Assembly: GCF_041381155.1 (NCBI RefSeq)
Contig: NC_091138.1
Coordinates: 31,551,604 to 31,615,603 of the forward strand
DNA length: 64,000 nucleotides
Source: Argopecten irradians
Taxonomy: Eukaryota > Mollusca > Bivalvia > Pectinida > Pectinidae
Direction: 5' to 3'
Shown here piece after piece: positions 17,290 through 40,489 of this stretch; position 1 is the stretch's first letter, and every line of letters starts with the position of its first letter. The notes under the pieces were generated by a model that saw nothing but the letters and a program-made list of their open reading frames with translations, was not told where the DNA came from and did no database searches. A program made the translations under genes and the position numbers.

Positions 17290-19465
17290 CTGACACTACC
17301 AAGCCTTCCCTCTATACTATACACCATTCCCCACCTTCTGTACACACTACCAAGCCTTCCCTCTATACACCATTCCCCACCTTCTGTACACACTACCCAG
17401 CCTTCCCTCTATACACCATTCCCCACTTTCTGTACACACTACCCAGCCTTCCCTCTATACACCATTCCCCACCTTCTGTACACACTACCCAGCCTTCCCT
17501 CTATACACCATTCCCCACCTTCTGTACACACTACCCAGCCTTCCCTCTATACACCATTCCCCACCTTCTGTACACACTACCAAGCCTTCCCTCTATACAC
17601 CATTCCCCACCTTCTGTACACACTACCCAGCCTTCCCTCTATACACCATTCCCCACCTTCTGTACACACTACCCAGCCTTCCCTCTATACACCATTCCCC
17701 ACCTTCTGTACACACTACCCAGCCTTCCCTCTATACGCCATTCCCTACTTTCTGTACACACTACCCAGCCTTTCCTCTATACGCCATTCCCTACTTTCTG
17801 TACACATAACCAAGCCTTTCCTCTATACACCATTCCCCACCTTCTGTACACACTAACCAGCCTTCCCTCTATACACCATTTCCCACTTTCTGTACACACT
17901 ACCCAGCCTTCCCTCTATACACCATTCCCCACCTTCTGTACACACTACCCAGCCTTTCCTCTATACACCATTCCCCACCTTCTGTACACACTACCCAGCC
18001 TTCCCTCTATACGCCATTCCCCACCTTGTGTACACACTACCAAACCTTCCTTCCTATATTGCCATTCCCCACCTTCTGTACACACTACCCAGCCTTCCCT
18101 CTATACACCATTCCCCACCTTCTGTACACACTACCCAGCCTTCCCCTATACACCATTCCCCACCTTCTGTACACACTACCCAGCCTTCCCTCTATACACC
18201 ATTCCCACCTTCTGTACACACTACCCAGCCTTCCCTCTATACACCATTCCCCAACTTTCTGTACACACTACCAAGCCTTTCCTCCTATACACCATTCCCC
18301 ACTTTCTGTACACACTACCAACCTTCCTCTATACACCATTCCCCACCTTCTGTACACACTACCCAGCCTTCCCTCTATACACCATTCCCCACCTTCTGTA
18401 CACACTACCAAGCCTTTCCTCTATACACCATTCCCCACCTTCTGTACACACTACCCAGCCTTCCCTCTATACACCATTCCCCACCTTCTGTACACACTAC
18501 CCACCTTCCCTCTATACACCATTCCCCACCTTCTGTACACACTACCAAGCCTTTCTTCCTATACACCATTCCCCACCTTCTGTACACACTACCCAGCCTT
18601 CCCTCTATACACCATTCCCCACCTTCTGTACACACTACCAAGCCTTTCTTCCTATACACCATTCCCCACCTTCTGTACACACTACCCAGCCTTTCCTCTA
18701 TACGCCATTCCCTACTTTCTGTACACACTACCCAGCCTTTCCTCTATACACCATTCCCCACTTTCTGTACACACTACCCAGCCTTTCCTCTATACGCCAT
18801 TCCTCACCTTCTGTACACACTACCCAGCCTTCCCTCTATACACCATTCCCCACCTTCTGTACACACTACCCAGCCTTCCCTCTATACACCATTCCCCACC
18901 TTCTGTACACACTACCAAGCCTTCCCTCTATACACCATTCCCCACCTTCTGTACACACTACCAAGCCTTTCCTCTATACACCATTCCCCACCTTCTGTAC
19001 ACACTACCAAGCCTTCCCTCTATACACCATTCCCCACCTTCTGTACACACTACCCAGCCTTCCCTCTATACACCATTCCCCACCTTCTGTACACACTACC
19101 CAGCCTTCCCTCTATACACCATTCCCCACCTTCTGTACACACTACCCAGCCTTCCCTCTATACACCATTCCCCACCTTCTGTACACACTACCAAGCCTTT
19201 CTTCCTATACACCATTCCCCACCTTCTGTACACACTACCCAGCCTTCCCTCTATACACCATTCCCCACCTTCTGTACACACTACCAAGCCTTTCTACCTA
19301 TACACCATTCCCCACCTTCTGTACACACTACCAAGCCTTTCTTCCTATACACCATTCCCCACCTTCTGTACACACTACCAAGCCTTTCTACCTATACACC
19401 ATCATCCCCGATCTCTGTACACACTACCAAGCCTTTCTTCCTATACACCATTCCCCGACCTTCTT
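17290..19465. repeat. 46-bp minisatellite, about 47 units
   Basis: Unit: CCACCTTCTGTACACACTAC, CCAGCCTTCCCTCTATACAC, CATTCC, with CCAAGCCTTTC variants and single-base slips. It shares CTTCTGTACAC with the 33-bp array, so the two probably have a common origin. Long open frames of about 490 and 513 residues run through it because the unit contains no stop in any forward frame. They cycle every three units and have no protein-like composition. The array fills intron 1 of the lipase pseudogene. Confidence 0.93.
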
Positions 19466-19835: not shown

Positions 19836-20071
19836 ACATTTTCTCTTCTCCTGTTTTATCTAACTAAATACTATTCTTGACCATTTTACCACTCAACTTC
19901 CAGCCGGAAATGATACGATACAACGGCTATCTTGTGGAGGTCCACAATGTGACGACCAAAGACGGGTACATCTTGGAGACACATCGGATTCCGCATGGCC
20001 GAACGTCAAACAAACCAGGTACCGTATACCGGATGTTTCAATTACTATATTTCGATACTGTATGAAGTAGC

Positions 20072-20152
20072 ACGCTAAGCCTGCCTATATTATAAGGCTC
20101 TTTTGTCTTATATATAGGAAAAAATCTCATAATATAGGGAGTCTAGCGGAAG
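20072..20152. repeat. short foldback repeat in lipase pseudogene intron 2
   Basis: CGCTAAGCCTGCCTATATTA on the left is inverted on the right as TAATATAGGGAGTCTAGCG. A related left end (CCTGCCTATATTATCAGGC) occurs near 41158. Confidence 0.4.
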
Positions 20153-20446
20153 TCCTATGTATAAAGATAATCACTATTTTGCATAATTTTCATTGATAGT
20201 CTCCAATAAACCGGTTGTACTGTTCCAACATGGCTTAAATGCCGGGTCGGTGTGTTCATCGAGAATGGGGCCAATGGGAGTTTGCCTTTTATACTGACTG
20301 ACCAGGAAATGGACGTATGGTTGTCGAATAGCCGTGGAAACGTGTATGGTTTGAGGAACACCCATTTAAACAATTCACAGGACGAATTCTGGGCATGGAG
20401 GTAAAGTAAAAATATTTGTCACAATATTTTTTTAGTGCAACTTTAT

Positions 20447-21172: not shown

Positions 21173-22164
21173 TAAAGGGATACTTAAGGTTCATGTAAAG
21201 GCTTTAAACAGTGATATTTTGCAAGCCTAAAACTCATTACTGTGCTGCAATTGAATAGAACTAATTTCATTAATTGTTGGTATATACCCTGGCTAACTGT
21301 CAATCTTACTGTTGATATGTATTTTGTGAAGCTGCTTGTAAAACTCAGTAAAATATGAGAAAAATGTATATTTCTGGAGAAGACATAGAACTCGTGTGAA
21401 TTGCAATGATGGAACCAAATAATCAAGCCATCGTGTTCAGTTGTGAATATGCCAAGTACTCCAACAGTTTGTTTGGCAAAATCGGACCAGCAAATAGCGC
21501 AGGAGCCTATTGTAGTAAATGCAAATGGCTGCTATAAATGGCGGATCACAAATATCGCATATAAGAAGCCATCTCAATTGATACAAATGGTCTTATAGGC
21601 ACCATAAGGTACTCTGAACATGACAAGAAGTTCAACCGATCTGTTTGGGGCGAAAAATGCAAATTTCCGGAAAGAGCCTCAAAGTCCACATTTTAACTAT
21701 TTTTTCGTAAGTAGTCTTCTTGTCATGTTCAGAGTACCTTATAGTGTATATAAGAGCACTTGTATCAATTAAAATGTCTTCTTATATGCTATATTTGTGA
21801 TCCGCCATTTAAAGCAGCCATTTGCATTTACAACAATAGGCTCCTACGCTATTCGCTGGTCCGATTTTGCCAAACAAACTGTTGGAGTACCTGGCATAGT
21901 CACTACTGAACACGATAGCATGCTTATTTGGTGCCATCAATGCAATTCACACGAGTTCTATGTCTTCTCCAGAAATATACATTTTTGTCTTATTTTACTG
22001 AAATTTACAAGCAGCTTCACAAATTACATATCCACAGTAAGACTGACAGTTAGCCAGGGTACATACCAACAATTAATGAAGTTAGTTTTGTTCAATTGCA
22101 GCACAGTAATGAGTTATAGGCTTGCAAAATATCACTGGTTAAAGCCTTTAAAGGGATACTAAAG
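21173..22164. mobile_element. about 1-kb foldback element inside a lipase exon
   Basis: Two arms of roughly 450 bp (21195-21650 and 21716-22150) are inverted copies at about 85-90%, with a loop of roughly 70 bp (21650-21715). Matching words include AAAGGCTTTAAMCAGTGATA, CCAAACAAACTGTTGGAGTA and TTGTCATGTTCAGAGTACCT. The direct word AAAGGGATACTWAAG occurs at both borders (about 21174 and 22151) and may be a target duplication. No transposase is seen, so it was mobilised in trans. It replaces the region between [10 protein letters not shown] and LIADITPNAS of the exon. Confidence 0.75.
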
Positions 22165-23541: not shown

Positions 23542-25052
23542 CTGAGCGCCGATGAAAACGCAACACTTTTTAATTGAATATTTTTCAATTAAATTTTTTG
23601 TTCATATCAAACAAATTAATAATGTAAAACTTTGAGCACCTTACCTATGTATACAATAATGATTCGCATGACTGAACTTGCTCTCGGGCCGTGAAGCAGT
23701 CGATTGTCGAAAAAGTACCTATCTGCATGTGCACTCGGTATCAATGCGCGCTTGGTTTACCCATTACATGTGTACAGTCCATGTGGATAGGAAGACTGTT
23801 TTCCACATTCAGATTTTGAAATCGCCGTTTAGTTTGGAAAACGATGCCACGACTTACGGATACCCAGCGTCACGAAGTTAGGGGTATGTTTGCAGGCGGT
23901 CTTCCGCGGCGTGAAATTGCGCGTAGAATGAGATGTTCGCCTTCTACTATTGTGAGACTTCATCAGCAGTACGTTCAAACGGGTTCTTTGAATGATAGAA
24001 CGCGCCCTGGGAGGCAACGAGTGACGTCGGATCGACAGGACCGTTACATTCGGGTCACCCATCTCCGTGACCGCTTCCAAACTGTCTCCCAAACGGCCAG
24101 AACAACGATCGGTATCAATGGAAAATGAATTTCGGTTTCTACTGTCCGTCGACGTTTGCGTAGCGCCGGTTTGAAAGCCTGTATACCCTTCCGTGGAAAA
24201 ATGTTGACACAACGTCGACGTCAAAATCGCCTGACGTGGACCCGGAGGCATCGACGTTGGCTCATGCGCCAATGGAGACGCGTACTGTTCACGGATGAAT
24301 CCCGCTTCCATCACCGTAATAGTGACGGTAGAATTCGCGTGTGGAGACGACGGGGAGAGCGTTACGTCGATTCGTGCGTCCTCGAATGTGACCGTTGGGA
24401 TGGTGGAAATGTCATGGTGTCGGGCGCGATATCCTTCGACCGCAAGACGCCCCTTGTTATCGTGGACGGTAATCTGACGGCACGGCGTTACATCGACGAA
24501 GTCATACAAACTACCGTTGTACCCTTCTTTCGTAATCACCCCGACGTCGACATTCTACAGCAAGGCCATGCTCGTGCGCAATCAGCAAGGTTGACCACAT
24601 TCTTCCTTTATCAACAGAACAATTCAAACACTGTCCTGGCCTGCCTTCTCCCCTGACCTTAGTCCGATTGAACACTTTTGGGACCAGTTTTAGGTCAAGC
24701 TGTGAAACAATGTTAGCCACAACCGCAAAATCGACGTGAACTTAAAATTGCCCTTCAGGAGGAGTGTAGGAACATACAGCCAGTTAGAATTGAGCGTCTG
24801 GTTCAGTCCATGTCACGTAGGTGTCTTGCTTGTGTGGAGGCAAAAGATGGTCACATCAGATATTGAAAGTGTGAAAATGAATTTGGGGGTAGTGTTGAAA
24901 CATTTGTCTCATCCCCACTAACTCACTGGTAGGAAACGACTCTCGAAATGTATACCTTTGTAGTGAAATAAAGTTGGGGTTTTTTCTGTTATTGTTTTGT
25001 TACCATTAATTTTTGCATATTATAACAGTGTTGCGTTATCATCGGCGATCAG
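23542..25052 (+). mobile_element. Tc1-like DNA transposon, whole but inactive
   Basis: 1511 bp between TA target duplications, with inverted ends CTGAGCGCCGATGAAAACGC and (right, inverted) CTGATCGCCGATGATAACGC. It holds one transposase region on the plus strand. It lies in intron 6 of the lipase pseudogene and has slightly higher GC than its surroundings. Confidence 0.85.
23844..24740 (+). pseudogene. Tc1-like transposase remnant
   Basis: The N-terminal part (MPRLTDTQRHEVRGMFAGG...) is a paired-type helix-turn-helix followed by an RPGRQRVTS linker. After an in-frame TGA at 24126 the same frame continues with STVRRRLRSAGLKA and the DDE domain: FTDESRF with the first Asp, then GGNVMVSGAIS. The second Asp position of the family motif (LQQDNARPH) reads LQQGHARAQ, so a catalytic residue is lost. 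The last block SPDLSPIEHFWDQF, with the Glu, is in another frame. At least three lesions make it inactive. Confidence 0.85.
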
Positions 25053-25859: not shown

Positions 25860-27205
25860 GCCCTCCATCTATGGGTCATGGTGACGGAGTCGTTAGAGCA
25901 TCATACATTCTTCCATCCACCCTCCATCCCTGGGTCGTGGTGGCTGAATCGTTCAGGTATCAGATATTATTCCACCAGCCCTCCATCCCTGGGTCATGGT
26001 GACTGAGTCGTCAATGTGTCTGACATTCTTCCATCCACCCTCCATCCCTGGGTCATGGTGACGGAGTCGTTACAGCATCATACATTCTTCCATCCACCCT
26101 CCATCCCTGGGTCGTGGTGGCTGAATCATTCAAGTATCAGACATTATTCCTGCCACCTTCCATCCCTTGGTCATACTGACCGAATAGTTAAAATTTCAGA
26201 TATTCTTCCATCCACCATCCATCCATGGGTCATGATAACTGAATCGTTACAGTATCAGACATTCTTCCACCCGCCCTTCATGTCTGGGTCATGGTGATTG
26301 AATCGTTATGGTATCTGACATTCTTCCAATCGCCTTCCATGTTTCGGTCATGGTGGCTGAATCGTTACAATACCAGGCATTCTTCGACCCGTCCTCCATC
26401 GCTGAGTCACGGTTGCCGCCAAGTCGCAATAGTATCAGACATTCTTCCACACACCCCATTCCTGGGTCATGGTGACTGAATTGTTACGGCATCAGACATT
26501 CTTCCACCCGCCCTCCATCCCTGAGTCATAATGAGTGTTTTATTACGGTATCAGACATTCTTCCACCCGACCTCCATCCCCAAATGAATATTTATTACTG
26601 ACATTCTTCACCGTCATCCCTAATAAGTGATTTATTACGGTATCAGACATTCTTCCACCCGCCCTCCATCCCTGAGTCAAAATGAAATGATTTATTACGT
26701 TATCAGACATTCTTCCCCCGACCTCCATCCCTGAGTCATAATGAGTGATTTATTACGGTATCAGACATTCTTCCACCCGCCCTCCATTCCTGAGTCAAAA
26801 TGAAATGATTTATTACGTTATCAGACATTCTTCCACCCGACCTCCATCCCTAAGTCATAGTGACTGAATCATGACTATATCGAACAATATTCCACCCGCC
26901 CTCCATTCCTGGGTCATAATGACTGAATCACGACAGTGTCAGATATTCTTCCACCCGTCTTCCATCTCTGGGTCTTGGTGACTGAATCGTTACGGTATCT
27001 GACATTCTTCCAGCCGCCCCCTCCCCATTTCTTGGTCATGGTGGCTATTAGTTACCGTACCAGACATTCATCGACCCATCTCTGAGTCATGGTAACTGAA
27101 TCATGACAGTATCAAATAATCTTCCACCCGTCCTTCATCCCCGAGTCATGGTCACGGAGTCGTTAAAGTGTCTGACATTCTTCTACAATCCTCCACCTCT
27201 GGGCC
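25860..27205. repeat. 59-bp minisatellite, about 22 units
   Basis: Unit: CTCCATCCCTGGGTCATGGT, GACTGAATCGTTACGGTATC, AGACATTCTTCCACCCGCC. Around 26540-26830 a variant with TGAGTCATAATGAGTGATTT is itself repeated, a higher-order pattern. It starts about 110 bp after the lipase pseudogene stop. Confidence 0.9.
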
Positions 27206-28162: not shown

Positions 28163-31100
28163 ATGGGGTTACTGCTACTAATCCTGGTTACTATGGTGAC
28201 TGCTGGTCATAGTACGTCCATACGACACCCTTCTCGAATCAAATACGACCCAGAGGTTTACATGAATGTTGTAAGTAGGTATCATTTTTGCTTGCATTGA
28301 GACTGTAAAATCTTATCAGTTCGACTGACCATTGTCCATATCATTCCAATCGGTAAGTGAGATGATAAGATTGCTCAACGTTATACTGTAATGATATAAA
28401 ACTTCTCATAAGTGTTCAAAAGGGAACCTAAGTTACAATGTTAATTTAATATTAACCGTCTGTGTTGGAGCAGAAACGGACAGAGACGGTTTATATTATG
28501 AATATTGTATAAAGGTATATAATATTTTTTTCGTTTTATAACTTATCAGTGAAAACTATATCTAAAATGCTGCATATGATCATCATCATTTCCATACTTT
28601 TCTCTTTTGAGGTCAAGATCCATTACCTCCAAACAGTTGCAATATCGGTTAAAAGATCAGTATCAGTTTACGACCCATGACACCCATGTAGCTGTCCTAA
28701 TTGTTCACAACCTCACAACACACGATCCTCACTTGCCATGATAATGGTCTATTTTTGAGATAATCACTTTGTTCATCCTCAGTCCTCACAAGATTTGTTT
28801 TCTTTCGCGTATGTAATGTTATCCTCGTCTTAAATGCCAATAAAACTAATGCTTGTTGGTGATTGTTGCAGAGCCAGTTGATTACCAGTAAAGGCTATCC
28901 ATGTCAGGAGCACCAAGTACCGACCGATGACGGTTTTATTCTCGGAGTACAGAGAATACCTCATGGCAAACTCGAGAACCAGAAAGGTACAACACTGTTT
29001 CACTATGTATCCATGACATCTGACTATTCAGTCATTAGCTTTCCCAGTATATTTTCCCTTAATAGATCAGCTCGTGGGTCTGTTCCAGCATGGACAAATG
29101 TCTATAGAGCCAAACACTCGTGGCTCAATTCCCTGGCTGCCCAGTCTTTTGTTTTCCGAGTATAGTATCCCAAGAAAGAGCAGCCCGTGGTCCTGTTGCA
29201 GCATCGTCCAATTCCCTGACTACACAGTCATAGTTTTCCTTTCCCCAGACAAGACCAGCCCATGGTCCTGTTGCAGCATCGTCTAATTCCCTGACTACAC
29301 AGTCATAGTTTTCCTTTCCCCAGACAAGAACAGCCCGTGGTCTTGCTGCAGCATAGTCTAATTCCCTGACTATTCAGCCATTTTTTTTCCAGTATATTAA
29401 CCCAAAGACAACCAGCCCGTGGTCCTATTGCAGCATGGCTTGCTCTCCTGCTCAGATTGCTGGGTTGATAACCTCGTGAACGAGAGTCTGGGGTTCCTAA
29501 TGGCGGACAACGGCTTTGACGTTTGGTTGGGAAACAGTCGTGGAAACACTTACTCGCGGAAACATAAAACACTCAGCCCAAAGGACCCCAAGTTCTGGGA
29601 ATGGAGGTATGTACAATATCCAATCCACTTCATTATTTTTCGGTCGTGTCAGTTCTTACCATTTAACTGTCGTAGTGAGACTCATAGAATCAACGCAAGC
29701 TCTAAATGACGCAGTATTCTTTTTGCCTGCTGTATTAGTTGGGACGAGATGGCTTTGCATGACTTACCGGCCATGGTTGACTACATTCTGAATGTGACCA
29801 ATCGGAAGCAAATTTACTACTTAGGGCACTCACAAGGTACACAGATCGCTTTCTCCGGCCTTGGTCAGTCCTGGAACACAGATAAAGTGAAGATGTTTTT
29901 CGCGTTAGCACCTGTTACTACTCTCGGTGGTATTATCAGCCCTATCCGACTCCTGGCCCCCTTGGCTGAGCAAATACAGGTAAACATTGATGTGGTATAT
30001 TGTGTAGCATGAGTGAGTGCTTGACCAATATAGATGTGCGTGTGAATTATTGTATAGCTGTACAATTTTCATATCGTTTAGAAATATAACTTACTCGTTA
30101 TAACTTTATTATTTCTTTATTAACCTCCAAAATAATTTTTTTAACAATCTATGATGATGCTAAACTTTGCATAATGAATATAACCCTTCGTTTTACCGCC
30201 ACATTTTGTCCAGCGCCGATTATGGCGGTATAAAGGGAGTAGTGGTGCAACGGAATTTACATTAGTAATAATTTGAAGAAACATGATGTCTATTGAATAT
30301 TTGTACAATTTTTCAGACCCTTTATGAGATATTTGGAAAAGGTGAGTTTTTGCCCAGCACAGACTTCATAAAGTGGCTTGGCCGGACATCTTGTAGCAAA
30401 TCTGGGATAGACTTCCTTTGTGAAAACGTATTTTTCGTCCTTGGCGGTTACGACTTCAAACATTTAAACGAAGTACGTATTTAATTGGGAAATATTTTTT
30501 TCTAAAGGCATCATACTTCATTACCAGTTCCATGCATCACTAATTAGAATGCATCACATGTGAATTTTCAATATATAATCCAAAGAAACACATATCTCGC
30601 CTGTAAGATATTAATAGTGGTAAATTGTGTTACAGAGTCGAATTCCTGTGTATGTAGCTAGTCATCCGGCCGGCACTTCAGTACAGAACATTATCCACTA
30701 CGCTCAGGTCTGTTTGCATATTCATACATACATCAACCAGACGCACTTTTTATTGAACTATATTGAATAATGTAATTTCATGTTTCGCCATGTAGGTACA
30801 ATGTACATGTAATATTTACCTCTACTTAAATGTATAAAAGGTCCATATTTTCCATTTTCAAAAAAGCAATGATAACATCTATTATAAAATTTATAATGAT
30901 GACCGAGGAACGGAGCCCTGAAGAACTCCACATTTGGACAATATAGTGTGGGATCACAGGCACAATATTCCCTGCGTTTCTAAAAAAGCGAAGAGAGATA
31001 AGCATTTTCGCTTGACTTTAATATCCAGTCAATAAGAATCTTGGATTGTCTATTTCCTGATAAAGTTGTCCATTTTAATGACAATTCTTTCGGAAAGAAA

Positions 31101-32139
31101 AAATTACGTGATACATAACGGTGATAACGTTATTAAAAAGAAATGTATGGTTGCATGAATTGACACACACTTCTGTTTAAGAAAAAAATCTCTCCATTCT
31201 AGTCTGTCCGTCATAACCAGTTCTTGATGTTCGACTTTGGTTCCGAGCAGGCAAACCTCGACCATTATAACCAGGTAGACATAAGATTTTATCAGTATAT
31301 ATATATATATATATTTCTGTAAAGCACTTTTCATAAAGATAAAATGAACACACACACACAATAAAACAACAATTTAGACTATTGGCTGTAGGCATGTTTC
31401 AACTGCAAGCTGCGAACCGTTTTACTCTCGGTTGGCATTAAGCCTTTGATAAATGATATCAAATATTCTATTAGGTGATAGCACTTTGGAATTCGCCGAT
31501 CCAATAGCGATAAAGTTACAAAGTTTCAATCCGTAATGGCTTACTTTTTGCCACATAGACTACAATTATTGTAATGATAAATGAGTGAATAAAGGGAAAC
31601 ATGATGTAGTAATATCTTATAAATGAATGAGAGTGTTTATAGAGACTTTTTTTTATCACATTGACTAAATGTTTGAAGCGGAAATTCAAATGACCATTTG
31701 AATCTAAAATATGGTTTACTGTGAAATAGTGGGTTATTTTGAACTAGAAAACATGTAAATATAACAATTAAAGGATTGTAGATTGCAATAATTGGAGATA
31801 TAAATGCAATCTGAAAGACAGATAAATACTTATATATATTGCTTTAGTCATACCTGTGATTTTGAAGTTTGCGTTTTCTTGCAGACGACACCGCCCGCAT
31901 GGAATGCGTCCCTTGTGACGACTCCAACCGTTGTATACTCCGGCTCAAAGGACTGGTTAGCTGACCCAACTGATGTTCAAACCCTCCTCCCCAAAATTAC
32001 AAACTTAGTAGCCTCAAAAGTCATAGACGGATGGGAGCATCTGGACTTCCTATGGGCAATGGATGCACCCCAGCAAGCGTACAATGACGTTATTAGACTT
32101 ATCCATGAACAGGAAGCAGTCGATCAAAACTCGACATAG
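28163..32139 (+). CDS. acid lipase-like gene, tandem copy 1 (in-frame stop in exon 3)
   Basis: Eight exons: 28163-28270, 28872-28986, 29393-29606, 29739-29979, 30317-30472, 30636-30707, 31203-31274 and 31885-32139. The total is 1233 nt, identical in every exon length and phase to the neighbour at 34047. The product is a lysosomal/gastric acid lipase family member: signal peptide [49 protein letters not shown], nucleophile [16 protein letters not shown] with WLGRTSCS in the lid/cap, [15 protein letters not shown], and the [10 protein letters not shown] aspartate and [11 protein letters not shown] histidine. TAA at 29398-29400 falls in frame four codons into exon 3, where the sister gene has TAC (VYYP). 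With the neighbouring acceptor this truncates the protein before the active site. It is therefore a young pseudogene, a null allele or a base error; everything else is intact. Intron 2 holds four decoy copies of the exon 3 start. AATAAA follows at 32220. Confidence 0.85.
29060..29392 (+). repeat. four tandem copies of the exon 3 start in intron 2
   Basis: Copies centred at 29078, 29186, 29260 and 29334 each carry the exon 3 coding start (CCCGTGGTCCTGTTGCAGCA), followed by an ATTCCCTGACTACACAGTCA-type spacer and a pyrimidine-rich CCCCAG acceptor. The true exon 3 follows at 29393. Confidence 0.8.
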
Positions 32140-34046: not shown

Positions 34047-37000
34047 ATGGCGTTACTGCTACTCCTCCTGGTTGCTATGGTGACTTCTGGTCATAGTACG
34101 TCCATAAGACATCCTTCCGGAATCAAATATGATCCGGAGGTCTACATGAATGTTGTAAGTAGGTATTATATTCGCTTGTATTTAGACAGGAAACCTTGTC
34201 AGTTCGACTGGTGTTCATAACTGTCCAATCGGTTAGTGAGACGATATGATGGCATAACGTTATACTATAATGGTAAATATTATGATTTTATTTCATAACT
34301 GAATACTTTCTTTGAGGTAAAAAACCATTACCTCCTAACGGCTGCAACATTGGTTTGCATACTATGGCCTATTGACGGTTGCAATGTCAGTATCAGTTTA
34401 CGATCCATGATATCCATTCATACACACGATCCTCACTTACCGTGCGTTCCATTTGCAGTTGTATCGATACGAATCTGCTGTATCTAAAATGGAATGCGCT
34501 GTACCAGCAGAACTGTACCGGTACAAATGGTTCGTTTTCAGAAGCGTACCACTTGTATCCAAGAATGTTTTCTTTGTTGAACACAAGGCAGAGTATATTC
34601 ATATCCGATAAAATTATATGGATTGTTTATTTCAATATATGCCGAAACTATTTAGGTATTATTTTATATCCATTTCATTGTTAACACCGAAAATACTTAG
34701 CTTTTATATTCGAATCGTATCTTTCATATGGGTGCCGCCATCATGGAAAAATCCAAACGCGTTCCATAAGGCGGTGCCGTATCACTTTAGTACAACTGGT
34801 AAGAATCCGCAAATGGAATGAACGATTAATGTCACTTGCAATATTTAGGCGACCATGATAATGGTCTCTCTTTTTGAGATAATCACTTTTGTGCCTCCTC
34901 ACAACAACTTTTGTTTTCTTTCGCGTATGTAAATGACAATGAAACCTATGCCTGGTAGCAATTTTAATAGACGCCCATATAACTTGTTTGTTGCAGAGCC
35001 AGTTGATTACCAGTAAAGGCTATCCATGCGAGGAGCACGAAGTACCGACCGATGACGGTTTTATCCTTGGAGTACAGAGAATATCTCATGGCAAACTCGA
35101 GAACCAGAAAGGTACAATACTGTTTCATTGTGTAACCATGCCAACTACATCGCAACAAAGACAGTGACTCATGTCCTTACTGCGTACAGATATGTACGTT
35201 ATTGTTTGAAAACTAACCCAATGCTATCAATGTGGTCGAATTGTTCTTATTATAGATGTTTCTCTGGTAAATATATGTAATACTATGTCAGACTTTTTTT
35301 CAATAACCATTCGTCAATTACATTTTAGTACTGCAAGATATGGATTTTTTGCTCTGCGTATCTGCCGTTAGGTGTTTTTTTGTGACTATCACCGTTTTTT
35401 TCCGTCGTCAGACATGCCCCACGTCCAACATCAACGTGTTGTTATGCAGTAAATGTTAGGAAATGAACACTAGCTTTATGTTAGTGAAATGAATTTTTTA
35501 TTAATCTGGTATGTCCGTGGTCCTGTTGCAGCATCATCTCATTCCCTGACTACTTGGTCCAATGTCTATGAAGCCAAAAGCCTGAAGTACAATTCCCTGG
35601 CTACCCAGTCTTTTGTCTTCCCAGTATGTTACCCTAAAAAGATCAGCCCGTGGGTCTACAGCAGCACGGTCTAATTTTCAGTCGTTTGCCTTCCCAGTAT
35701 ACTTTCCCAAAGAAGACCAGTCCGTGGTCCTGCTGCGGCATAGTCTAATAACCTGACTATACCGACATTTTTTCCTTCCCAGTATACTACCCCACAGGAG
35801 ACCAGCTCGTGGTCCTGCTACAGCATCGTTTAATTCCCTGACTAAACCGTCATTTTTCTTCCCATTATACTATCCCAAAGAAGACCATCCCGTAGTCCTC
35901 CTGCAGCAAAGTCTAATTTCCTGACTATACCGTCATATTTCCTTTCCAGTATACTATCCAAAAAAAGACCAGTCCGTGGTCCTGCTGCGGCATAGTCTGA
36001 TATCCTGACTATATCGTCAGTTTTCCTTCCCAGTATACTATCCCAAAGAAGACCATCCCGTAGTCCTCCTGCAGCAGTCTAATTTCCTGACTATACCGTC
36101 ATTTTTCCTTTCCAGTATACTATCCCAAAGAAGAACAGTCCGTGGTCCTGCTGCAGCATCGTCTAATTCCCTGACTAAACCGTCATTTTTCCTTTCCAGT
36201 ATACTATCCCAAAGAAGAACAGTCCGTGGTCCTGCTGCAGCATCGTCTAATTCCCTGACTAATCCGTCATTTTTTTCTTCCAAGTATACTATCCCAAAGA
36301 AGACCAGCTCGTGGTCCTGCTGCAGCATTGTCACATTCCCTGACTATTTGGTCCAATGTCTATAAAGCCAAACCACTGAGGTACAAGTCTTTTGTCTTCC
36401 CAGTATGTTACCCTAAAAAGATCAGTCCGTGGGTATACAGCAGCGCGGTCTAATTTTCAGTCATTTGCCTTCCCAGTATATTTTCCCAAAGAAGACCAGT
36501 CCATGGTCCTGCTGCAGCATAGTCTAATACCCTGACTATACCGTCATTTTTTCCTTCCGTGACTACTACCCCAAAGAAGACCAGCTCGTGGTCCTGCTGC
36601 AGCATAGTCTAATAACCTGACTATACCGTCATTTTTTCCTTCCGTGACTACTACCCCAAAGAAGACCAGCTCGGGGTCCTGCTGCAGCATCGTTTAATTC
36701 CCTGACTTAACCGTCATTTTTCTTCCCAGTATACTATCCCAAAGAAGACCATCCCATAGTCCTCCTGCAGCATAGTCTAATTTCCTGACTGTACCGTCAT
36801 TTTTCCTTTCCAGTATACTATCCCAAAGAAGACCAGTCCGTGGTCCTGCTGCAGCATCGTCTAATTTCCTGACTATACCGTTATTTTTCTTCCAAGTATA
36901 CTATCCCAAAGAAGACCAGTCCATGGTCCTGCTGCAGCATAGTTTAATTTTCTGACTATGCCGTCATTTTTCCTTTCAGATATACTATCCTAAAGACCAG

Positions 37001-40000
37001 TCTGTGGTCCTGCTGCAGCATCGTCTAATTTCCTGACTTCACCGCAATTTTTCTTCCCAGTATACAATCCCAAAGAAGACCAGCACGTGTTCCTGCTGTA
37101 GCTTAGTCTAATTTCCTGACTATCCCGTCTTTGCTGCAGCATAGTCCAATTATCAGACTATACAGTCATTTTTTTTCCTTCTCAGTATACTACCCTAAAA
37201 AAGACCAACCTGTGGTCCTGCTGCAGCATGGCCTGATCTCCTGCTCTGCTTGCTGGGTTGATAACCTTGTTAACGAGAGTCTCGGGTTCCTAATGGCGGA
37301 CAACGGCTTTGACGTTTGGTTGGGAAACAGTCGTGGAAATACTTACTCGCGGAAACATAAAACACTCAGCCCCAACGACCCAAAGTTCTGGGAGTGGAGG
37401 TATGTAAAAGTTTCAACCAACTTCATTATTTTTCTGTCTTGTCAGTTTATAAGAATCAACACAAGCTCTAAATGACGCAGTATTCTTTTTGTTTGCTGTT
37501 TTAGTTGGGACGAGATGGCTTTGCATGACTTACCGGCCATGGTTGACTACATTCTAAATGTGACCAATCAGAAGCAAATCTACTACTTAGGGCACTCACA
37601 AGGTACACAGATCGCTTTCTCCGGGCTTGGTCAGTCCTGGAACACAGATAAAGTGAAGATGTTTTTCGCGTTAGCACCTGTCACTACTCTCGGCGGTATC
37701 ATCAGTCCTATCCGACTCCTGACCCCCTTTGCTGAGCCAATACAGGTAAACATTGACGTGGTATATTGTGTAGCGCGAGTGATTGCTTGATGCTGTTGAA
37801 ATATTAAAATTGAATTGAATTAATTTATACATTATGTGTAAATCTGGTGTTTAACTCGATGAAGCTATATTGAAAGCAAATACTTCATATTTAATTAAAG
37901 TCTCGCCTTTTGCAACTGTCTCTAAACGCTACACATCTTTATATATATACAAGTATATTTGTTTGTTTGTGATTTTTTTGTAAAATTTTCCAGACCCTTT
38001 ATGATATATTTGGGAAAGGTGAGTTTCTACCCAGCACAGAGGTCATTAAGTGGCTTGGCCGGACAGCTTGTAGTAAACCTGGAATTGACTTCCTTTGTGA
38101 AAACCTATTATTCGTGCTTGGCGGTTATGACTTCAAACAATTAAACGAAGTAGGTATTTAATTGAAAAGCTAATCAAATTTGGATTTTTTTTCTTTCGAA
38201 AGGTATCATCCCTCATTACGAAAAAATATCCAGTTCATTTCATGAAACGTTTGAATATTTGTTCCGATATTTAATCCAAAGAAACTCATAACTCGCCTGC
38301 AAAATAAACTATGATCTATAGCTTAAGTTTGTGTTACAGACTCGAATTCCTGTGTATGTGGCTAATCATCCAGCCGGCACTTCAGTACAGAACATTGTCC
38401 ACTACGCTCAGGTTGGTTCGCACACTCACCACACTTTAATGTACATACATGTACCGCATTTGAATTATGTAATTTCTTATGTCGCCATGATGGTGTATGT
38501 AATTTGTATATCTCACAAGCTTTTGTTGGGTGCAATACCCAAATGAAGAAAGGTCCTTAACTTTCAATAATATTCATATTTCTTGATTTCTTCGGATTAA
38601 AATTATAAAAATTAATAACGATGACCTAAGTACGGAGCCCTGAAGAACTCCACATTCGAATACTATAATGTGTGGTCACAAGCACAATAAGATCTCTACG
38701 TTTCTGTAAAAACAACGAGAAATAAGACGCGACGCAGGACGTTGCACTAGCCTGACGTATTTTCATGTGATTATAATATTCCAGTCAATCAGAATAATAG
38801 AATGAATATGTTTTAAGTTGTACATTATACAATGACATTTTTTTCCGAAAGAAAAATTGATGTGAAACACAACTATGAAAACGCATGAATTTATACGAAC
38901 TTCTGTTTAAGAAAAAATTCTTTCCATTCTAGTCTGTCCGTCATAACCAGTTCTTGATGTACGACTTTGGTTCTGAGCAGGCAAACCTCGACCATTACAA
39001 CCAGGTAGACATACGATTTTATCAGTAAATATATTTCTGTAAAGCACGTTTGATAAAGATAAAATGAACGCACATACAATAAAACAACAATTTAGACTAT
39101 TGGCTGTAGGCATGTTTCAGTTTCAAGCTGTGAACCGTTTTACTCTCAGTTGACATAAGTCGTATGATAAATGATATCAAATATTCGATTAGGCCTAGGT
39201 GATGCCACCTTGGAATTTTCGCCGATTGAATAGCAATAATCGAATATGTGAAGTCAAATAATGATATTTAAAGATTTTATCTATTAAAAACAGGAGCAGA
39301 CGAATGAGATTTTTTTTAGTTACAAAAGTTACTTACTTTACACCATTACCACCTTTGAAAAGTTTGGGCATCTTCTTTTAATTCAAAATAAAAAATATAA
39401 AAAAAATAATTCATTGCTTGAGCCTTCCCGAAAAAAGTCCGTGGCACTTTGCTTTATATAATCTATATGGAATTAAGTACTGATTCCGCATGCACCCAAA
39501 GCAAACTTACTTATTTTATATGCATTTTTGTGTTCATTAGACACATATGAACACGAATAAGCTTCCGTTATAGTTCAAACGATGGGTATCGTTTACGCTG
39601 TGTCAGCGGTGGATCGTCTTGTAAAAAGTCCACGGTTCCAGAGCATGGCATACACATTAGCTTGACAGTTTTAGGTTTGATATCAGGTACCGATGGAATC
39701 GCGGGACTTGTGTTACAATATAGCAAACCACTATGGCTTATACATTTTGCCACATTGACTTCCGATGTTTTAATGATAATCATGATCTGAATTATGAGTG
39801 AATAAATGTAGACTTGGTGTGGTAATACCTATATACATGAATGTGCGTCCTGTTAACTGACACAAAGTCATTACGCATGTAGTTAAATGAACCAGATTAT
39901 TTATAAAAAATCTTTTAAACACCTGGATATATTTTCGCGGATTGAATAGCAATAATCGAACATGTGAAGTCAAATATATATATATAAGATTTGTCGTCGT

Positions 40001-40489
40001 TTCAAATGAAGTCTAGGGACTATTTTTATTACTTTGACTAAATGATAGAATTGGGACATTTAAATGTTCACTTGTATCTAAAATATGTTTACTGTGAAAT
40101 AGAAAATATCTAAAAATAGCAATTGAAGGATTGTACGATTGTAATAATTTTTGCAGATACAAGTGCATTCTGAATGGCAGATACATATTATACATAGCTT
40201 TATCATACCTGTGATTTGAATTTTTTTCTCGCAGACGACACCGCCCGCCTGGAACGAGTCCCTTGTGACGACTCCAACCGTTGTATACTCGGGCTCCAGG
40301 GACTGGCTATCTGACCCAGCTGATGTTCAAACCCTCCTCCCTAAAATTACAAACTTAGTAGCCTCAAAAGTCATGGACGAATGGGAGCACATGGACTTCA
40401 TATGGGCAATGGATGCACCCCAGCAAGCGTACAATGACATCATTAGACGTATCCATGAACAGGAAGCAGCCGACCAAAACTCGACATAG
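34047..40489 (+). CDS. acid lipase-like protein, tandem copy 2 (intact)
   Basis: Eight exons with clean GT/AG borders: 34047-34154, 34997-35111, 37186-37399, 37505-37745, 37994-38149, 38340-38411, 38933-39004 and 40235-40489. They give 410 residues, close to human lysosomal acid lipase (399). A signal peptide ([15 protein letters not shown]) implies secretion or lysosomal delivery. The N-terminal DPEVYMNV and [18 protein letters not shown] blocks match the family, followed by the oxyanion-hole region VVLLQHGL (84-91), [17 protein letters not shown], and nucleophile Ser177 in GHSQGT. The cap region [18 protein letters not shown] comes next, then Asp349 in [10 protein letters not shown] and His378 in EWEHMDF. 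The expected reaction is hydrolysis of triacylglycerols or cholesteryl esters; which substrate cannot be read from sequence. Intron 2 is expanded to 2.07 kb by about 19 copies of the exon 3 start. Intron 7 has a repeat-flanked insertion. AATAAA lies at 40516-40521. Confidence 0.93.
35510..37150 (+). repeat. array of about 19 copies of the exon 3 start, about 83-bp period
   Basis: Each unit runs pyrimidine tract - CCCAG - TATACTATCCCAAAGAAGAC - CAGTCCGTGGTCCTGCTGCA - GCATCGTCTAATTCCCTGAC - TATACCGTCATTTTT. The middle is the first ~45 nt of lipase exon 3 and the rest is intron. Copies fall near 35514, 35650, 35722, 35803, 35889, 35969, 36057, 36139, 36223, 36311, 36426, 36503, 36588, 36672, 36756, 36838, 36922, 37003 and 37085. 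A longer segment with TTGGTCCAATGTCTAT recurs at 35557 and 36349, a higher-order duplication of about 790 bp. In exon frame most units hit TGA at ATTCCCTGAC. Confidence 0.9.
39216..39976. repeat. 45-bp direct repeats flanking about 670 bp in lipase copy 2 intron 7
   Basis: GATTGAATAGCAATAATCGA and its surroundings (39216-39260) recur at 39932-39976 with two to three differences. Lipase copy 1 has only one weak counterpart at about 31492. Sequence between them that is absent from copy 1 includes CCGTGGCACTTTG, which is shared with 52640-52665. A minus-strand stretch near 39568-39783 is open (…[19 protein letters not shown]) but was not recognised. Confidence 0.55.

Follow-up and report, generated by a model that had tools for sequence, protein, structure and literature searches.

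Minisatellites that multiply an intron-exon boundary are known from amphioxus, where they are called mirages and are described in Adh3, in the globin genes BflGb6 and BflGb9, in troponin C and in PGBD5 (PMC3087553, PMC3902484). Here we describe an array of this type in a bivalve. It lies in a window of 64,000 nucleotides of the scallop Argopecten irradians (NC_091138.1, positions 31,551,604 to 31,615,603 of the forward strand; all positions below are those of the window). The array occupies intron 2 of an acid lipase gene, which we call gene B, and places 18 decoy copies of the start of exon 3 ahead of the real one. On the basis of sequence comparison we put at a little over three in four the probability that this is a mirage-type minisatellite, born by tandem duplication and most likely spliced out passively.

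The amphioxus reports give some indication of how such arrays behave. Two haplotypes of the BflGb6 mirage differ in length, at 6 and 3 units, and reverse transcription PCR suggests regular splicing (PMC3087553). The mirages of PGBD5, Adh and troponin C reportedly give no aberrant mRNA (PMC3902484). Duplicated boundaries have also been connected with the gain of introns. In recent human gene duplicates, new introns have, with support from transcripts, been associated with internal tandem repeats at the boundaries between exon and intron (PMC2812944). A Drosophila study describes intron gain by tandem duplication together with intron sliding, with premature stops in 18 of 18 such intron sequences (PMC2891723). 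An earlier note on the scallop DNA knew of no named system of this kind, but the mirages of amphioxus fit it (PMC3087553, PMC3902484).

The repeated exon start of gene B

The array comprises 18 decoy units (35590-37129, + strand) within intron 2 (35112-37185). The decoy exon starts are at 35624, 35698, 35783, 35866, 35950, 36034, 36116, 36200 and 36285 (units 1-9), and at 36403, 36477, 36562, 36647, 36730, 36814, 36897, 36980 and 37061 (units 10-18); for decoys 1 and 10 the position used in acceptor scoring is one base later. They are spaced by 74-85 bp, with one step of 118. Tandem Repeats Finder reports 17 copies of period 84 at 35685-37129, with a score of 1037. A fragment of the unit without an acceptor start of its own lies on the 5' side (35516-35580), and another (37130-37160) follows the last decoy, ahead of the real acceptor. 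With the real copy at 37186, this agrees with the earlier description of an exon 5' end, acceptor included, multiplied about 19 times inside the preceding intron.

The array is real in the assembly and far above chance. A 44-nt probe from the exon start matches the decoys from 35624 to 37061 at 27-44 of its 44 letters and the 5' fragment at 27, and in the sister gene A it matches at 31-38 letters at 29048, 29161, 29236, 29311 and 29393. Elsewhere it reaches only 24-25 (four sites on the + strand, and one on the - strand at 24). A search of the genome with the unit (846 Mb in 1508 contigs, match counts being lower bounds) gave at least 19 matches, all of them in genes A and B and including the real exon of B. 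An origin as a transposon or dispersed repeat is ruled out by this confinement. The genome is recognizable from its genes as that of a scallop, very likely Argopecten, and not of an amphioxus: on contig C11, exons for about residues 23-156 of the myosin regulatory light chain agree with the Argopecten chain 1b7t_Y and differ from it only where the matches end; the first 20 or so residues were not found. A single exon matched nine distinct solved sequences at E = 0.001 or better, eight of them scallop myosin regulatory light chains and the ninth an unrelated designed protein. The listed hits of the gene families, except one on C390, lie on contigs C1-C16, in agreement with the 16 chromosomes of Argopecten.

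The usual unit consists of a pyrimidine tract and an AG, then some 58 nt resembling exon 3, and in 14 of the 18 decoys a CTGAC motif lies upstream of the acceptor. Units and exon 3 are homologous as far as TCCTG, and from there the following unit reads CCTGACTA, so the exon part is longer than the 45 nt or so first proposed. The unit structure of tract, CAG and exon start stands as described, except that the acceptor is not uniform. The AG is in register in 14 decoys and shifted 1 nt upstream in one more, giving 15 retained acceptors of which 13 are CAG and two AAG; it has been lost from its expected site in three (35866, 36562 and 36647). Each decoy is 84-98% identical to its nearest relative, and the array contains higher-order inner repeats. 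In a mirage the core units are homogenized and the edge units left out of this; here the edge units are among the most diverged, with nearest relatives at 84% (B01) and 86% (B18), but the inner units B10 (84%) and B09 (89%) are diverged as well.

Joining exon 2 to any of the 15 decoy acceptors leads to a stop upstream of the real exon, so the use of a decoy in gene B would truncate the protein, as had been claimed. The stop lies within about 20 codons in 14 cases. The decoy at 36034 departs from the short frames originally described, reading through more than 100 codons. The in-frame TGA that closes most of these frames is part of the CTGAC of the next unit. Only the last copy leads into a complete predicted exon with a donor (exon 3, 37186-37399, GAG/gtatgt), and in the spliced model the exon 2 donor comes after 35111.

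The sister gene A (28163-32139, + strand) has the same eight-exon structure, and it carries four decoys in the same place (29020-29392), as reported before. The decoy at 29048 has kept its CAG, and about 80 codons are read before a stop. That at 29161 has GAG, and the other two have a moved acceptor, CCCCAG, at 29249 and 29324. Exon 3 of gene A (29393-29606) has an in-frame TAA at codon 77 (29398-29400), which falls inside the unit-repeated part; the remaining exons are open. The ratio of nonsynonymous to synonymous rates (dN/dS) between A and B is 0.18, from counts of 55 synonymous and 41 nonsynonymous differences after exclusion of stop codons. An AAAG 15 nt into the exon (29408) would bypass the TAA in frame, and scores poorly at -5.1. 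Because of the stop and this poor alternative, gene A is either a null allele, a pseudogene of recent origin or a gene whose acceptor has shifted.

A tree of the units places A02 with B01 and B10 (90/88) and joins A01 to B02 and B11 (91/86). An 86-nt sequence that runs into A02 and B01 is shared by them at 77%. Given these results, the duplication that gave genes A and B is probably younger than at least two of the decoy lineages, in keeping with the first part of the earlier proposal that the process began before the duplication or recurred after it; later exchange between the two genes could also have produced the shared lineages. The other 14 B decoys form one group with weak support, and A03 and A04 group together (99/99), their shifted acceptor being private to gene A. 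Growth of the two arrays afterwards appears from the tree to be largely separate.

The array would probably have begun with a tandem duplication at a short match, TCCTG/CCCTG, common to intron 2 and exon 3, since duplication between such matches would make the homology end at TCCTG with CCTGACTA following. The stretch copied would have held the branch-point-like CTGAC seen in most units, the pyrimidine tract, the acceptor and the 58 nt or so of exon 3. The first copies were probably made before A and B separated, and unequal exchange would then have enlarged and homogenized each array independently.

Boundary duplications elsewhere in the genome

We surveyed 37 further exon loci (L029-L065; 30 Myosin_head and seven light chain, some of them overlapping) for tandem duplication, defined as a self-match of at least 25 nt with E up to 1e-4, an offset of 15-600 and copies no more than 300 nt apart. 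Such duplications cover 6 of 74 matched edges and 1901 of 20868 flank windows (9.1%; Fisher p = 1.0, or 0.68 with five edges instead of six), where an edge is the end of a profile match and so an approximate exon end, the flanks are largely intron but not verified as such throughout, and the overlapping windows and neighboring loci are not independent. Exon interiors are covered at 2.5%. Since edges are covered no more often than flanks, the process looks blind to splice sites.

By eye, boundary duplications were recognized at five of the 37 loci, all five among the 30 myosin-head loci and none among the seven light-chain loci. They are on the acceptor side at L033, L050 and L055 and on the donor side at L039 and L051. 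The duplications at the myosin loci L033, L039, L050 and L051 are smaller than that of L055, and L039 has the appearance of a ladder of decoy donors. A sixth candidate, L047, was dropped as its repeat begins about 15 nt inside the intron. L035, L052 and L066 were not counted, their self-matches lying outside the matched exon, nor was L045, where a match of 25 bp is more than 1 kb distant.

The most extensive case is the myosin gene at L055 (G000:C5:36365841-36366026, minus strand, with its flank). It has 25 decoy TTAG/ATGT acceptors within 1.5 kb, mostly at a spacing of 60 bp, in an array that lies ahead of the exon and reaches the end of the locus. The lipase array is thus not exceptional in this genome, and not the largest seen; mirages are apparently common there. 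The 11 decoys of L055 nearest to the exon are in frame into it, with stops further upstream. Truncation is therefore not general in mirages. We hold tentatively, with somewhat less than even confidence, the wider view that splice-site duplication is pervasive in the scallop genome, affecting about one in seven of the sampled exon loci at the rate of their flanks, that scallop genes would thereby constitute a large natural experiment on the spliceosome's choice among many near-identical sites, and that the arrays may feed mutations into coding sequence, the stop of gene A among them.

Probable choice of the real acceptor

Donor and acceptor scores here and above come from splice-site matrices that were not trained on scallop genes. 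The real acceptor of gene B scores 9.9, the highest among the units of the intron, compared with 7.5 or less for any decoy. Exon 3 defined from the real acceptor is 214 nt in length, whereas those defined from the decoys would be 339-1775 nt. The array has few candidate donors: of its 114 GTs, 4 score as high as the weakest real donor, and the median level is attained by one, situated at the 5' edge upstream of the first decoy. Exon definition would be expected to select the last copy, because almost no GT of the array is at the level of a real donor and only the last acceptor lies at a normal exon length from a good one. The real acceptor thus probably wins by a combination of exon definition and a better tract, and the array would be removed passively as part of the intron.

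Two known ways of using multiplied splice sites can be set aside. In a Dscam-type cluster of mutually exclusive exons each copy is itself a whole exon, bounded by an acceptor and a donor. That is ruled out here, as the copies have no donors (the 4 of 114 GTs just mentioned). A recursive splice site has an acceptor followed directly by a donor, AG/GT. The scallop units have AG/TATAC or alike, and re-splicing would drop a base and so change the reading frame. The donor created by joining exon 2 to a decoy would be AAA/gtatac; the similar CAA/gtatac scores -2.8, compared with 0.0 for the weakest real donor.

Several observations weigh against passive removal. The donor shortage is not special to the array, because a control, intron 7 of gene B, also has no GT at the median level (0 of 64). 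CTGAC is absent at the real acceptor of gene B, where CAGAC is found instead, and is present in 14 of 18 decoys; the branch site of some decoys may therefore be the better one. Two decoys of gene A outscore its real acceptor, 6.3 versus 5.6. Finally, when all 18 B decoys are taken together, variability is lower in the exon-like part than in the intron-like part (0.163 versus 0.264; permutation p = 0.004) and, by codon position, highest at the third (p = 0.049). Both of these patterns could hint at constraint, but they fade (p = 0.32 and 0.12) in the 14 core units left on removal of four old ones. Among those 14 the AG columns, which are two columns only, vary most (0.33; next region 0.196), compared with 0.12 for the tract and 0.13 for the exon-like part, so no selection to retain the decoys is seen and selection to keep their acceptors is not supported.

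A further possibility, compatible with passive splicing, is that the units exchange sequence with the exon, speeding change in the lipase loop that precedes the HGL motif and perhaps moving the acceptor. Differences between genes A and B are concentrated at the start of exon 3, with 12 in 60 nt compared with 85 in 1173 elsewhere (Fisher p = 0.0016). The densest 60-nt window has 14 differences and begins 4 nt into exon 3, a density matched in 318 of 20000 shuffles. This clustering of divergence in the repeated part suggests exchange between array and exon. The TAA of gene A likewise lies in the repeated part, despite the dN/dS of 0.18 calculated with that codon excluded, and the in-frame AAAG would provide a shifted acceptor that skips it. 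Human lysosomal acid lipase is four residues shorter at this loop. Yet the AAAG scores poorly, the comparison is of one gene pair and shows no conversion tract with sharp ends, and weak constraint on the loop could also raise the divergence. We therefore consider such exchange possible but on the unlikely side.

The decoys could instead act as a regulatory ladder, where some transcripts would be spliced to a decoy, meet a premature stop and undergo nonsense-mediated decay, giving less lipase. Gene B has features that would suit this. Each of the 15 decoys that retain an AG in register or one base off runs into a stop ahead of the real exon, 14 of the 18 decoys have the CTGAC that the real acceptor lacks, and the exon 2 donor is the weakest of the gene. 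However, the AGs that such regulation would use are not conserved in the two columns they occupy, exon edges are duplicated at the rate of flanks, and the 11 nearest decoys of the myosin array read in frame. The amphioxus mirages, moreover, are reportedly without aberrant mRNA (PMC3087553, PMC3902484). On balance we judge regulation improbable, and the earlier suggestion that the array lowers output is left unsupported. A repeat collapsed or expanded in assembly is very improbable, for although tandem arrays are difficult to assemble and one mirage was misassembled in the draft amphioxus genome (PMC3087553, from the legend of its Additional file 4), the B decoys are only 84-98% identical to their nearest relatives with higher-order repeats among them, and related units are present in gene A. 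The exact copy number is that of the single assembly examined.

Other lipases and known systems

In the spliced model gene B has eight exons between 34047 and 40489 on the + strand, and encodes an acid lipase of 410 residues. Exon 1 (34047-34154) and exon 2 (34997-35111, donor AAG/gtacaa) precede the array, and exons 4-8 follow exon 3 (37505-37745, 37994-38149, 38340-38411, 38933-39004 and 40235-40489). The protein matches Pfam Abhydro_lipase and Abhydrolase_1, and its closest solved structure is human lysosomal acid lipase (6v7n, E = 7.9e-119).

Profile matches to PF04083 fall in exons of four genes. The diverged lipase gene C has an intron 2 of 181 bp (20019-20199, + strand) with no array, the tandem-repeat listing having no entry there. 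Lipase gene D, on contig C1, has exons 2 and 3 fused and likewise no array. The array as a trait of all acid lipases is thereby ruled out. Gene C also contains an inverted repeat (21196-21630 and 21716-22150) with arms of 435 nt that are 92% complementary and 85 nt apart. At 23829-24656 it has open frames on both strands, that of the + strand being, by eye, what we take to be a transposase-like sequence of mariner/Tc1 type. A 59-bp array of about 19 copies in two listed blocks (25861-27019) lies directly 3' of the last exon of gene C. A 46-bp unit is repeated about 46 times in a minisatellite at 17317-19464, which is strongly GC-skewed and stays open over long distances in several reading frames.

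Mirages were known from amphioxus, and their occurrence, apparently frequent, in a bivalve suggests a wide tolerance of splice-site duplication. Literature searches, judged from titles and the openings of abstracts, found no report of a mirage in a mollusc, though this argues only weakly that none exists. A gene that has a single true acceptor behind 18 or 25 decoys would allow the parts played by exon definition, site strength, branch site and position to be compared from ordinary RNA data. Arrays that exchanged sequence with the adjoining exon would also give rise locally to changes in the protein and to its loss.

The scallop units resemble the amphioxus mirages in being tandem and in spanning an intron-exon boundary. 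The authentic copy is the last and is joined to a complete exon, here the predicted exon 3, and a splice signal is found in many but not all units, 15 of 18 in gene B. The closest likeness in form is to BflGb6, where the 3' end of an intron and the 5' part of an exon are repeated as in the scallop lipase. The differences are the bivalve host, the 18 decoys compared with the 6 and 3 units of the BflGb6 haplotypes, a unit of about 84 bp rather than 150-160 bp, and the presence of arrays in a pair of paralogues, some of their units being older and others younger. The human boundary repeats (PMC2812944) share minisatellite expansion at a boundary of duplicated genes, but are linked to new introns, whereas the scallop array lies within an existing one. 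The Drosophila introns (PMC2891723) share the duplicated splice motifs, but no new intron has arisen in the scallop gene.

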